In this document: in pieces, positions 27,267-31,206 of the stretch
Position numbering within the stretch: the stretch's first letter is position 1
How the letters are laid out: each line of letters opens with the position of its first letter
NCBI RefSeq assembly: GCF_030378165.1
Contig: NZ_CP119766.1
Location: 3,596,001-3,660,000, forward strand
DNA length: 64,000 nucleotides
Direction of reading: 5' to 3'
DNA from: Flavobacterium panacagri
GTDB lineage: Bacteria; Bacteroidota; Bacteroidia; Flavobacteriales; Flavobacteriaceae
Notes under the pieces: model-generated
Told to the model about the DNA's origin: nothing
What the model saw: only the letters and a program-made list of their open reading frames with translations
Databases searched by the model: none
Position numbers and translations under genes: made by a program

Positions 27267-27671
27267 TTACGCTTCAATAATACTTAAAATAGTTTTCGGA
27301 ATTTCAGCGAAAGCTTCAAAAGAATATGGTTTAATCAGATACGCTTTTACACCCAGATCATCACATTTTTCTTTATAAGATGGATTAATGCTCGTTGAAT
27401 ACACAAAACACGGAATGTTTTTTAATTCGTTAGTATTCAAAATCTGCTGTAAAGCTTCGATACCATCAATAATAGGCATATTGATATCAGTAAGAATCAC
27501 GTCGGGATTTTCGTTAGAAGGATTTTTGAGATAATTCAGCAGTTCTTCGCCATTGGCAACAAGGCTGACTTTGCTAAAATTGGGATTATTGGTAAAAGTT
27601 TCTGTGATAACATCGGCGTCGTCCATGTCATCTTCGGCAATTATGATATGTAAGTTGTATTTTTGTGGCAT
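27267..27671 (-). CDS. single-domain response regulator of the kai operon
   Basis: 134 residues consisting of a receiver domain only. Acidic pocket in IIIAEDDMDDAD (about 9-20), phosphoacceptor D62 in VILTDINMPIIDG, conserved Thr/Ser region FVYSTS and Lys in YLIKPYSFEAF. There is no DNA-binding or enzymatic output domain, so it must act through protein contacts or as a phosphate relay. It ends the operon kaiC-kaiB-kaiB-kinase-regulator, 1 bp after the kinase gene, and is presumably that kinase's partner. Confidence 0.92.
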   Translation of the reverse strand: MPQKYNLHIIIAEDDMDDADVITETFTNNPNFSKVSLVANGEELLNYLKNPSNENPDVILTDINMPIIDGIEALQQILNTNELKNIPCFVYSTSINPSYKEKCDDLGVKAYLIKPYSFEAFAEIPKTILSIIEA

Positions 27672-27672
27672 T

Positions 27673-28929
27673 TTATACGATTGGGAAGTAAAGATTAAAT
27701 GTTGTGCCCTCGTTCAATGTGCTTTCAACGGTTATGTTACCAGAATGGTTTTCCATTATCTTTTTACAGATCGCGAGACCAATACCGTTTCCTGAATATT
27801 CATTTCGGGCATGCAGACGCTGAAAAATGATAAAGATTTTAAGCAAGTGGTTTTCTTCCATTCCAATACCATTGTCTTTAATCTGCACTTTTACAAATCT
27901 AGCATTTTGATTTGGTATTTCAGCATCTAAATTTTCTTCCTGCAAAATTTCTATTATGGGAGCAATATTGGCTTTGCTGTATTTGATCGCATTTGAAATA
28001 AGATTCGAAAAAAGCTGTCTCATCTGTACTCTGGAAGCTTTGATTATGGGTAGTTTTCCAGTTTTGATATGTGCTTTTTTATCTGCTATTACAACTTCAA
28101 AATCCTCAATAACCTGAGCAATTATAGTTTCCAGATTTATTTCAGTGCGTTCTTCCTGTGCCGTATGGGACGAATATTGAACCAAATCATCGACAAGCGA
28201 ATTCAAACGCAAGGCCGATAATTTCATCACGTTAATGGCTTTTGCATCGGCTTCTTTAAAATAACTTCCATCAATTCTGCTGGTATTCATGACGATTTTC
28301 CGCAACGGTTCTTTCAAATCGTGCGAGATCACATGAATAAACTCTTCAAGATTTCGATTGGTTTTGTTGAGTTCGTTTATTTTTTGTTCTAATTCTTTCT
28401 GATGGCGGAATAAAGCTTCTTCGTGCTTTTTCTTCTCCGTCAAATCGGTAATTACAATTCCAATCGCTTCTACAGCAGGTTCAAGGTCAGTTAAGGCAAT
28501 ATAAGCTGGAAAAGTCTGTTTTTCGTTCTCCGATTTAAAAAGAATTTCATGCGTTGTGATACCGTATCGTAATGCTTCAATTAACGAAACAAACTGCTCA
28601 GGATTCACAAAATATTCATTTAGGTAATTCCCTATTATTTTTTCTGACGGAATACCGACTAATTTCGAAAAATATTCATTGCAATATAATATAAGTCCTT
28701 TTCTGGTAATGCTTAATGCGCCCTGTCCAAATTTTTCAATAAGAAGACGATAGGTGTAATCGGCAGTTTCCAGAGAATAAATCTCGGGAACTCCGTTACT
28801 GCTTACCACAAGCGCATCTACATCTCCTTGTTTTATGGCATTAACAATGCTGTTTGATTCATAAAGTTCTTCCTTTAATGATTCAATTTCTGCTAATAAA
28901 TCGGCTATATCTTTTTTATTCTCCTTCAA
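27673..28929 (-). CDS. PAS-domain sensor histidine kinase of the kai operon
   Basis: 418 residues, soluble (no membrane segment). An N-terminal coiled coil (about 5-45) is followed by a PAS domain (about 57-165: ITRKGLILYCNEYFSKLVGI), a linker helix, and a HisKA dimerisation domain with phosphoacceptor H203 (VISHDLKEPLR). The HATPase domain has NLISNAIKYS, DNGIGM and GNGIGLAICK. It is packed within 1 bp of both neighbours, between the second kaiB and the response regulator. It may read the KaiBC state or feed a signal to it. Unlike cyanobacterial SasA it carries no KaiB-like domain of its own. Confidence 0.93.
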   Translation of the reverse strand: MKENKKDIADLLAEIESLKEELYESNSIVNAIKQGDVDALVVSSNGVPEIYSLETADYTYRLLIEKFGQGALSITRKGLILYCNEYFSKLVGIPSEKIIGNYLNEYFVNPEQFVSLIEALRYGITTHEILFKSENEKQTFPAYIALTDLEPAVEAIGIVITDLTEKKKHEEALFRHQKELEQKINELNKTNRNLEEFIHVISHDLKEPLRKIVMNTSRIDGSYFKEADAKAINVMKLSALRLNSLVDDLVQYSSHTAQEERTEINLETIIAQVIEDFEVVIADKKAHIKTGKLPIIKASRVQMRQLFSNLISNAIKYSKANIAPIIEILQEENLDAEIPNQNARFVKVQIKDNGIGMEENHLLKIFIIFQRLHARNEYSGNGIGLAICKKIMENHSGNITVESTLNEGTTFNLYFPIV

Positions 28930-28930
28930 A

Positions 28931-29230: not shown

Positions 29231-29233
29231 GAT

Positions 29234-29527
29234 TTAAGATTTTATAGGTTTAATGTTAAGACCTACAAGCACTCTTTCTTCATTAGAAAGGTCACCTATA
29301 ATTTTACGAATAGGCTCGGGAAATTTGCGCACCAAAGTAGGTACGGCCAAAATCTGATCGCCTTCTGCCAATTGCGGATTCTTCAGCAAATCGATAATCT
29401 CGATGCTGTATTTTCCTTTTAAATGTTCCTCGGCATATTTCTTTATGTTTTCGAGCGCCTTGATCGATTTTGGCGTTTGCCCTGCGATATAAAGCAATAA
29501 TTGCCATTCGGCTATTTCTTTTTTCAT
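29234..29527 (-). CDS. kaiB: KaiB-family protein, near-canonical
   Basis: 97 residues. The sequence follows cyanobacterial KaiB closely as I remember it: LLYIAGQTPKSIKALENIKK, EIIDLLKNPQLAEGDQILAV, PTLVRKFPEPIRKIIGDLSN and EERVLVGLNI. The acidic C-terminal tail of the clock protein is missing. KaiB normally binds phosphorylated KaiC and changes its activity cycle. It starts 5 bp after kaiC. An alternative-frame open stretch inside it is not coding. Confidence 0.95.
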   Translation of the reverse strand: MKKEIAEWQLLLYIAGQTPKSIKALENIKKYAEEHLKGKYSIEIIDLLKNPQLAEGDQILAVPTLVRKFPEPIRKIIGDLSNEERVLVGLNIKPIKS

Positions 29528-29532
29528 TTTGT

Positions 29533-31206
29533 TTACTTTTTCTTAGAAGACAGTTTTTCCTGCAATTCTTCTGTTGCTTTTAGGATACTCAGTTCTTCTT
29601 CTGCCGATTCAAATTCATTTCTTAAAGCTTCAATATTAGCTTCAAGAACTTTGCGTTTACGTTCAATTTCCCTGTCTTTTCTGCTGATTTCGTTTTGAAG
29701 CTTAATGTCAGACATGGTTTTTTTGAATTGATAAGACTGTCTCGCGGCACCCGTTAAAATTCCCTGCGGTCCCAATTCTACATCTAGTAATTCGATTCCG
29801 TTACTGGTAATCACAAATTCTCTTACTTGGTTAGAATGTCCCATTCCGCGGGCTTTAATGATAAAAATACCACGGTTTCTTTCGCCAATTCCTTCCATAT
29901 CGCGAACCGTAATCCAGGTATCGACCAACGATGAAACCGATTCTTCTGCCAGATCTGGTCTAAAATTATCCGTCTGTTTGTTCAGAGACGTAAACATGGC
30001 CGTAATATTATGGGCTTTCAGCATATCAATTAATCGAACAAGCATAGAACGGACTTCATGTTCGCTTCCTACCGAAATCAGATTACTAATCGGATCAATG
30101 ATAACAGTAGTAGGCTCAAACTCTTTGATTAATTTTCTAAGCGTAAGCAAATGCAGTTCCAAACCATTTAATGACGGACGGGAAGAATGAATTTGCAAAA
30201 TGCCTTTCTTGATGTGTTTTTCGAGATCAATTCCGATTGATCTCATGTTGCGTACCAATTGATGTGGTGATTCTTCAAAAGCGAAATAAATCGTTCTTTC
30301 GTTCTTTTCGCATTGTTCATTGGCAAAATAACAGGCAACTGTTGTTTTAGCCGTTCCGGCAGTTCCAGAAACCAAAATGTTGCTGCCGCGATAAAAACCG
30401 CCGCCATGAAACATTTCGTTGAGTCCGGGAACACCTGTAGAAATAATATCTGAAGAAACTTCATTGTCCAATTTCAAAGAAGTAATTGGAAGTACCGAAA
30501 TACCATCTTCATCAATTAAAAACGGGTATTCGTTTGTTCCATGTGTTGAACCTCTGTATTTTACAATTCGAAGTCTTCTGGTCGAAACCTGTTCAATGAC
30601 ACGATGATCGAGAACGATTACACAGTCCGAAACGTATTCTTCCAAACCTTGACGCGTTAAGGTCGCTTCACCTCGTTCTCCTGTAATAACGGCAGTTACG
30701 CCTTTGGTTTTCAGCCAATGAAATAATCTTCGTAATTCTGCTCGTAAAATAGCCTGATTATCCAAACCAGCAAACAGCGATTCGATGGTATCCAATACAA
30801 CACGAGTCGCTTTTATAGAATCTATGGCATGTCCTAAGCGAATAAATAAGCCGTCTAGATCATATTCGCCTGCTTCTTCAATTTCCGATCTTTCCACACG
30901 GACATGATCTACAACCAATTTTTTATCTTTTTTAAGCTGTTCCAAATCAAAGCCTAATGATTTAACATTTAGCGTAAGATCGTCCGAAGGTTCTTCAAAA
31001 GACATGAAAACTCCAGGTTCGTCATATTCTGTGATCCCTTTAATAAGGAATTGCATCGATAATAATGTTTTGCCGCATCCAGCGCCGCCGCAGATTAAGG
31101 TTGGTCGTCCTTGCGGAAATCCTCCTTCCGTAATCTCGTCTAATCCGTCGACTCCAGTAGGAGTTTTTGGAAATATAAAACTATGTGATTTTGTTTTCTC
31201 TTGCAC
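29533..31206 (-). CDS. kaiC: KaiC-like dual RecA-fold ATPase / autokinase
   Basis: 557 residues. CI domain: Walker A GGAGCGKT (40-47), catalytic E71/E72 in SFEEP, Walker B VVLD near 136-139. CII domain: Walker A GTAGTAKT (281-288), E311/E312 in AFEES, Walker B TVIID near 367-371. At the position of the S431-T432 phosphosites of Synechococcus KaiC this protein has S425-S426 (AEESVSSLVDT), and T426 of that protein is Ala. The C-terminal ~60 residues (from FKKTMSDIK) are a predicted coiled coil in place of the KaiA-binding loop, and no kaiA is present. A clear promoter lies upstream; it is the first gene of a five-gene operon. Whether it times anything is unknown. Confidence 0.95.
   Translation of the reverse strand: MQEKTKSHSFIFPKTPTGVDGLDEITEGGFPQGRPTLICGGAGCGKTLLSMQFLIKGITEYDEPGVFMSFEEPSDDLTLNVKSLGFDLEQLKKDKKLVVDHVRVERSEIEEAGEYDLDGLFIRLGHAIDSIKATRVVLDTIESLFAGLDNQAILRAELRRLFHWLKTKGVTAVITGERGEATLTRQGLEEYVSDCVIVLDHRVIEQVSTRRLRIVKYRGSTHGTNEYPFLIDEDGISVLPITSLKLDNEVSSDIISTGVPGLNEMFHGGGFYRGSNILVSGTAGTAKTTVACYFANEQCEKNERTIYFAFEESPHQLVRNMRSIGIDLEKHIKKGILQIHSSRPSLNGLELHLLTLRKLIKEFEPTTVIIDPISNLISVGSEHEVRSMLVRLIDMLKAHNITAMFTSLNKQTDNFRPDLAEESVSSLVDTWITVRDMEGIGERNRGIFIIKARGMGHSNQVREFVITSNGIELLDVELGPQGILTGAARQSYQFKKTMSDIKLQNEISRKDREIERKRKVLEANIEALRNEFESAEEELSILKATEELQEKLSSKKK

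Follow-up and report, generated by a model that had tools for sequence, protein, structure and literature searches.

The window analyzed in this work, a 64-kb stretch of the Flavobacterium panacagri genome (GCF_030378165.1, NZ_CP119766.1:3,596,001-3,660,000), carries on its minus strand, from 31206 down to 27267, a compact operon in the order kaiC, kaiB-a, kaiB-b, PAS histidine kinase and receiver. We propose, with a probability of about 0.52, that its products form a KaiA-less KaiBC timer or energy switch of the R. sphaeroides (Cereibacter) type whose output is a split SasA, made up of KaiB-b and a kinase with a Kai-linked N-terminal module. The supports are computational and comprise gene order, paralogy of the two KaiBs, specificity of the kinase module, SasA-like sequence, co-variation and fusions; all binding, the direction of signaling (output versus input) and any timing are what we infer.

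It has been reported that almost all kaiC-kaiB clusters outside cyanobacteria have a gene for a kinase or a GGDEF/EAL protein directly downstream (PMC3164672), and a kaiC-B-PAS/HK operon has been named in R. palustris and R. sphaeroides (PMC4794148). Because kaiC-kaiB-kinase operons have been published, the operon type is already known. What seems to be new, judging by sequence comparison, is the division of labour between two KaiBs together with the Kai-linked kinase module, and no paper on the KaiB pair or the module was found in the open-licence literature searched by title or abstract start. That KaiC should stimulate non-cyanobacterial SasA homologues has been considered very unlikely, because the homologues found there have no KaiB-like domain (PMC5520375), and PMC10808063 leaves open what a fold-switched KaiB copy, or the several KaiBs of one bacterium, are for. 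If KaiB-b and the module kinase constitute a SasA-type output, five small genes from a relative of F. johnsoniae would bring both questions within reach of experiment, and the module would serve as a sequence tag by which Kai-linked kinases can be spotted in genomes.

Two KaiB families with fixed places

A FastTree phylogeny was built from 225 distinct KaiB domains, including cyanobacterial and R. sphaeroides references and 22 single KaiBs. One split (support 0.995) separated all 98 distinct KaiBs encoded at position 1 (KaiB-a) from all 98 distinct KaiBs encoded at position 2 (KaiB-b), the latter adjoining the kinase side in two-KaiB loci. The cyanobacterial and R. sphaeroides KaiBs fall on the KaiB-a side, as do 13 of the 22 single KaiBs. 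An earlier note on this DNA had called the kaiC-proximal KaiB canonical and the second one diverged, a distinction that holds. Judged by their sequences the two KaiBs are old paralogues, and their places are unswapped in the 100 two-KaiB loci examined. The idea that KaiB-b is a decayed copy of KaiB-a was ruled out by the deep split together with the conserved columns that KaiB-b has of its own.

Positions G89 and D91 of the fold switch were also compared (T. elongatus numbering; 100 loci per family). KaiB-a has G89 in the window and in 99 of the 100 loci, and in the window it has Asn for D91 (D 76 and N 21 in the family); KaiB-b of the window has Ile in place of G89, the family having G in 48, A in 31 and I in 14 loci. 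A role in fold switching has been described for K57, G88 and D90, G88 being highly conserved in KaiB2 proteins (PMC5520375). KaiB-b has a KaiB domain, but with its replaced G89 and predicted thioredoxin-like fold it departs from what is expected of a metamorphic KaiB. Residue A41 was dropped as an indicator of KaiC binding because the KaiC-binding KaiB of R. sphaeroides aligns Glu there, and an apparent KaiB-KaiB fusion (L123) was set aside as a likely frameshift.

A third group of single KaiBs (L055, L056, L057, L014 and L015; tree support 0.43-0.89) lies outside the KaiB-a clade together with Lpp1115, and in four of these five loci kaiB precedes kaiC.

A kinase module that follows KaiB

The kinases encoded downstream vary in their catalytic parts and have their first ~65 residues in common. 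This N-terminal module, made up of a helical heptad-like stretch and the two blocks AIxxGxVDA and YRxxIExMxEGA, leads into the PAS domain; no Pfam or NCBIfam family describes it. We searched 392 Bacteroidota genomes, of which 43 (own genome included) have KaiC at E <= 1e-60 and 349 are KaiC-less. A full-length module (E <= 1e-5) was found in 29 genomes, every time inside a kai operon and in all 29 together with KaiB, and in none of the 349 KaiC-less genomes, where one partial match (G222) was seen. It was present in all 21 genomes with two adjacent KaiBs, in 8 of the 17 whose KaiBs are single or dispersed, and in none of the 10 with KaiC but without KaiB. The module follows KaiB, not KaiC alone. 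An ordinary PAS kinase lying nearby by chance was rejected as an explanation because the full-length module occurs only together with KaiB in the 392 genomes.

A module-first scan, with one genome per species, gave at least 448 confirmed loci (at least 599 stretches), the best 80 of which were analyzed for KaiC and KaiB within the fetched stretch of up to 8 kb on each side of the module; because these best loci all match one peptide pattern, the scan may have overlooked module kinases that are more distant or stand apart from kai genes. Both KaiC and KaiB were found near the module in 77 of the 80 loci. Two others have KaiB alone at a contig start (L126, L145), and the last has neither, its module beginning 229 bases from the contig end (L154). 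Two KaiBs were counted in 73 loci, one in five, three in one and none in one. The titles of the module loci name Alpha-, Beta-, Gamma- and Deltaproteobacteria, Hymenobacter, Acidobacteria, Chloroflexi (Anaerolineaceae, Oscillochloris), Verrucomicrobia, Victivallales, Marinimicrobia and the archaeon Methanoperedens, in which the kinase lies ~5 kb from kaiC; single phyla among them may be mis-binned because many of the loci are metagenome-assembled. Viral contigs gave no match with either the KaiB-b or the module query. A plasmid search with the module query returned only its own source, and this search was insensitive, as the related kinase on R. sphaeroides plasmid pB went unfound.

By eye, the module-PAS unit is doubled within one protein in P0132, P0135 and P0146, and an Anaerolineaceae locus (L130) encodes a second module protein of 1494 aa (7980-12464) behind the first.

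Co-variation and fusions

Distance correlations were calculated over 97 two-KaiB loci and in three subsets of them: 52 loci outside Bacteroidota, 45 inside and 47 dereplicated. Given KaiC, the correlation of KaiB-b with the kinase was 0.69 versus 0.06 for KaiB-a in the 97 loci, 0.77 versus 0.46 inside Bacteroidota and 0.43 versus 0.18 in the dereplicated set. Given the kinase, KaiC correlated with KaiB-a at 0.66 versus 0.20 with KaiB-b; the respective values were 0.43 versus 0.01 inside Bacteroidota, 0.40 versus 0.20 outside and 0.45 versus 0.28 after dereplication. The rank order was the same in all three subsets. Such correlations can be raised by shared history as well as by contact.

A KaiB domain related to KaiB-b was found in 19 kinase-length proteins (16 of them read). 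Thirteen of the 19 carry the module, and the KaiB adjacent to it is of type b in 11 of these 13. The linker between KaiB and module contains no Met in P0248, P0255, P0258 and P0261. Clean type-b fusions are P0255 and P0258, the latter being present on eight contigs from two sources; the KaiB of P0261 is of type a by score, that of P0253 scores equally for both types, and P0247, P0248, P0249, P0251 and P0252 appear frameshifted by eye. The remaining fusions could be products of lost stop codons.

Likeness to SasA and predicted folds

In the window the KaiB-like protein and the kinase are encoded by separate genes, unlike SasA with its single polypeptide, and the kinase scores 115.9 against NF006800 (cut-off 342). 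Profiles made from 24 KaiB-b or 24 KaiB-a sequences were searched against the SasA N-domains 1t4y and 6x61. The KaiB-b profile reached 31.3 and 31.2 bits (E 1.3e-6 and 1.4e-6) and the KaiB-a profile 13.5 and 17.8 bits (E 0.48 and 0.022), their best thioredoxin scores being nearly equal (23.9 versus 22.7). When a model built from these two SasA domains was used, KaiB-b outscored KaiB-a in 96 of 100 loci (medians 23.0 versus 13.8). On these comparisons KaiB-b resembles the KaiC-binding domain of SasA more closely than KaiB-a does.

In AlphaFold2 monomer models made from 24 alignment rows, KaiB-b is predicted as beta-alpha-beta-alpha-beta-beta-alpha with a predicted local distance difference test score (pLDDT) of 81. 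The PDB ranking for this model is led by Lpp1115, KaiC-bound or switch-locked KaiB and KaiB-TV-4, and the SasA N-domain appears from rank 12, among thioredoxins and other proteins. The KaiB-a model is ground-state-like (pLDDT 64, C-terminal half weak), its first 17 PDB matches all being ground-state KaiB. The predicted contrast is therefore one of a thioredoxin-like KaiB-b and a ground-state KaiB-a. It has been reported that nearest-relative alignments predicted known fold-switching KaiBs, that of R. sphaeroides included, as ground state, and that a prediction of the same type was confirmed by nuclear magnetic resonance for one fold-switched KaiB (PMC10808063).

KaiC of the R. sphaeroides type

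The closest solved protein to the KaiC of the window is R. sphaeroides KaiC (8dba; 609.9 bits over residues 13-550). The KaiC of the window has two ATPase domains (PF06745 as two stretches), an intact CI Walker A at residues 40-47, a CII Walker A at residues 281-288 and adjacent phosphosites S425/S426 in CII (codons 29929-29934). Among 97 aligned KaiCs the catalytic Glu (EE) pairs are found in all and the SS phosphosite pair in 96. The domain pair, Glu pairs, Walker A motifs and adjacent CII phosphosites are those of a two-domain R. sphaeroides-like KaiC. The C-terminal tail aligns with 8dba through residue 550 (8dba residue 540), and a tail of at least 50 residues after position 487 is present in 94 of the 97 proteins. 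R. sphaeroides KaiC has been described as a KaiA-less dodecamer, held by a 12-helix coiled coil of its tails, that works as an hourglass following ATP/ADP (PMC10076222); by analogy, the KaiC of the window is probably a dodecamer formed through its C-terminal coil.

The CII Walker A of the window reads GTAGTAKT (30343-30366), with Ala replacing the Gly before Lys. The same form occurs in 35 of the 97 loci, including 13 of 13 from Flavobacterium.

Proposed mechanism and alternatives

According to our proposal, KaiC would autophosphorylate S425/S426 according to ATP/ADP, and KaiB-a, as the metamorphic partner, would bind the CI ring of phosphorylated KaiC and drive it back. With its fold fixed as thioredoxin-like, KaiB-b would act as a constitutive reader that docks on KaiC-CI when KaiB-a is absent, as modelled on the KaiB-like domain of cyanobacterial SasA, and would couple the state of KaiC to the kinase via the N-terminal module. 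The kinase may then set the phosphorylation of the single-domain receiver, which would pass the signal to an unlinked relay.

Several observations weigh against this proposal. Outside Bacteroidota the correlation of KaiB-b with the kinase, given KaiC, falls to 0.41 versus 0.16 for KaiB-a. The bootstrap 95% interval of this KaiB-b minus KaiB-a difference spans zero in the dereplicated set only, and that of KaiC/KaiB-a minus KaiC/KaiB-b does so in all three subsets. On the SasA model the lead of KaiB-b within the window's own pair is small (20.3 versus 16.5 bits). Once single KaiBs had been added to bring the KaiB-a profile to similar diversity, it reached 21.6 bits for S. elongatus SasA, compared with 28.9 for KaiB-b; the SasA likeness may reflect only a shared fixed fold. 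The fold models come from small alignments, that of KaiB-a being weak and of low confidence, and Lpp1115 of Legionella, the best structural match of KaiB-b, is said, in work by Loza-Correa from 2014, not to bind KaiC. The KaiB pair, moreover, is not needed everywhere, as some loci have just one KaiB, of type a or of type b. In 8 of the 29 Bacteroidota module genomes and in R. sphaeroides the module kinase is accompanied by one KaiB that falls on the KaiB-a side. Among the single KaiBs next to a module kinase, those of L047, L048, L112 and R. sphaeroides are clearly of type a, whereas those of L049-L054, six of the eight, are type a by 4-14 bits and hence near-intermediate. In the ~240-bp gap of L047/L048 no remnant of KaiB-b was seen by eye in three frames. 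Single type-b KaiBs stand beside a module kinase at L126 and L145, both cut by the contig start, and at two uncut Caballeronia loci (L122, L124), where a lone type-b kaiB joins kaiC and the module kinase and no type-a kaiB lies in between. The Caballeronia loci and the near-intermediate KaiBs of L049-L054 soften the case against KaiB-b as the partner of the kinase; they equally show that the two KaiBs can be parted.

Loci whose only KaiB is on the KaiB-a side also fit a different arrangement, in which the kinase reads KaiB-a/KaiC directly via its module, while KaiB-b tunes the system by competing with KaiB-a for KaiC without contacting the kinase. The same view draws on the correlation of KaiC with the module, which is 0.69 in the 97 loci (given KaiB-b, 0.36, and 0.63 outside Bacteroidota). 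We regard this arrangement as unlikely, since of the two KaiBs it is KaiB-b that shows the stronger co-variation with the kinase, that is encoded next to it in two-KaiB loci and that in some proteins forms one chain with the module; in two Caballeronia loci KaiB-b is alone with KaiC and the kinase. The position of the PAS domain directly behind the module and the receiver without an output domain could instead mean that the kinase is an input, its PAS sensing a cue and resetting KaiC via KaiB-b, with the receiver as a phosphate sink and KaiBC as a stress or energy sensor and not a timer; KaiC stress roles in Legionella and Pseudomonas have been cited (PMC11832031). In cyanobacteria, however, the signal flows from KaiC to the SasA kinase to RpaA (PMC5520375), and we consider the input arrangement quite improbable.

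The match of KaiB-b to Lpp1115, which has reportedly been proposed to be oxidoreductase-like, and to thioredoxins would suit an oxidoreductase-like stress protein with no part in Kai signaling. Against this stand the linkage and co-variation of KaiB-b with the kinase and the missing CxxC: KaiB-b of the window has none at the thioredoxin site, and in columns 30-33 of the family Cys occurs in at most 1 of 100 among the four commonest residues listed. This last explanation has very little probability in our estimate.

Extending the split SasA proposal beyond the window, we suggest tentatively, at somewhat below even odds, that the non-cyanobacterial KaiC timer has an ancient and widespread output of its own. 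It would be a split SasA of a permanently fold-switched KaiB-b and a kinase with a Kai-specific docking module, kept together as a kaiC-kaiB-kaiB-kinase cassette across Proteobacteria, Bacteroidota, Chloroflexi, Acidobacteria, Verrucomicrobia, Desulfobacteraceae, Marinimicrobia and possibly Methanoperedens, with cyanobacterial SasA as its fused relative.

Relation to known systems

The system of the window shares with the R. sphaeroides KaiBC hourglass the nearest PDB KaiC, the SS phosphosites, an aligned C-terminal tail and the absence of KaiA (PMC10076222). R. sphaeroides also has kaiC-kaiB-kinase on plasmid pB, and the N-terminus of that kinase aligns with the module; the R. sphaeroides set differs in having one KaiB (type a), an HWE-type kinase annotation and no adjacent receiver in the region read. 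With cyanobacterial SasA-RpaA the operon shares a KaiB-like KaiC-reading domain, to whose SasA form KaiB-b is the nearer of the two KaiBs, a histidine kinase and a response regulator. Here, in contrast, a gene of its own normally encodes the KaiB-like part, an additional module and a PAS domain are found in the kinase, the regulator is a bare receiver and KaiA is absent. The kaiC-HK family of Ramlibacter tataouinensis likewise has a dedicated N-terminal kinase domain (Nt_HK) beside kaiC, proposed as a KaiC reader, but no kaiB, whereas the module goes with kaiB; the Ramlibacter domain is described as receiver-like with weak SasA/KaiB likeness (PMC3164672). Like the fold-switched variants KaiB-TV-4 and Lpp1115 (PMC10808063), KaiB-b is predicted to be held thioredoxin-like; unlike them, it is linked with a kinase through its gene position, through co-variation and through fusions.

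Distribution of the gene order

At E <= 1e-60, 7 of 60 genomes of the same genus, own genome excluded, have a KaiC, as do none of 39 genomes from other families of the same order. The earlier note had asked for a survey of gene order and named a lack of conservation as refuting its reading; this refutation did not come about, as each of the 12 other Flavobacterium carriers fetched has the five genes in the full order (13 of 13 with the own genome). Further Bacteroidota loci have kaiC-kaiB-kaiB-kinase (L043, L044, L065-L075), with a receiver match after the kinase in L065-L067 that is weak in L065 and L066, or kaiC-kaiB-kinase with a single kaiB (L047-L054). KaiB is present and the module kinase absent at L055-L057, L076 and L078. 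At L045, L046, L077 and L079-L086 kaiC has neither kaiB nor a module kinase nearby. Plasmid-borne examples are kaiC-kaiB-kaiB-hybrid kinase in Pararhizobium and the R. sphaeroides set. Bacteroidetes have been said to stand out in having KaiB2/KaiC2-like proteins only (PMC5520375). The kaiC-kaiB-kaiB-kinase arrangement is not special to Bacteroidota and occurs in many phyla. The unit and its parts as read in the earlier note stand, and its Bacteroidota scope is too narrow, since the arrangement reaches many phyla and kaiC-kaiB-kinase had already been published (PMC3164672, PMC4794148).

Ten Bacteroidota genomes (L045, L046, L079-L086) have KaiC and lack KaiB. Behind several of these kaiC genes lie transport genes of MlaE/ABC/MCE-like kinds (named by eye).

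Operon layout, promoter and neighborhood

The five genes (Table 1) follow one another with gaps of 5, 3, 1 and 1 bp, the open reading frames lying as the earlier note had placed them and agreeing with Pfam. The kinase, with its phospho-acceptor His at residue 203 in SHDLKEPL, was judged by eye to be soluble. The receiver has its acceptor Asp at residue 62 in LTDIN and, consistent with the note's output-less regulator, no output domain. The 5.98-Mb genome, a single contig, has two KaiB matches and one KaiC at E <= 1e-60. As the note had claimed, KaiA (PF07688, E <= 0.01), a component of the KaiABC circadian clock, was not found in the own genome, the S. elongatus control being positive. The nearest named relatives of KaiB-b come from Flavobacterium daemonense and F. 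johnsoniae, the latter being genetically tractable.

Table 1 Features of the kai operon in the window
Feature	Position	Strand	Details
kaiC	29533-31206	-	GTG start, 557 aa; Pfam PF06745 394.6 bits
kaiB-a	29234-29527	-	97 aa; PF07689 92.6 bits
kaiB-b	28931-29230	-	99 aa; PF07689 86.2 bits
PAS histidine kinase	27673-28929	-	TTG start, 418 aa; PAS+HisKA+HATPase_c (Pfam)
Kinase N-terminal module and PAS start	28678-28917	-	alignment of downstream kinases
Receiver	27267-27671	-	134 aa; Response_reg 67.9 bits, residues 9-121
KaiC C-terminal tail, residues 488-557	29536-29745	-	alignment with R. sphaeroides KaiC
Putative -7 box TATATTTG	31229-31236	-	5' of kaiC

The Bacteroidota-type -7 box has the consensus TAnnTTTG. 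The bases TATATTTG are identical 5' of kaiC in 13 of 13 Flavobacterium carriers, starting 26-31 nt 5' of the kaiC start in 12 of them and 5 nt 5' of an alternative upstream kaiC start in the thirteenth (L063); a TTG lies 17-22 nt 5' of the box in 11 of the 13. Within the window the motif is not commoner than chance (87 observed versus 97 expected). A putative single promoter shared by all five genes is likely, because the box, and mostly the TTG, is kept 5' of kaiC across the Flavobacterium carriers.

A 17-bp site, TTACAAAGTTATACCAT, occurs twice, at 27203-27219 and 31474-31490, one copy on each side of the kai operon, and the window has no other match to it within 2 mismatches. The copies precede an HxlR-type regulator gene (26836-27171, minus strand) and an SDR gene (31533-32276, plus strand). 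In 6 of the 13 Flavobacterium carriers the kai genes lie between HxlR and SDR genes, which are possibly a regulator-target pair that the kai operon was inserted into.

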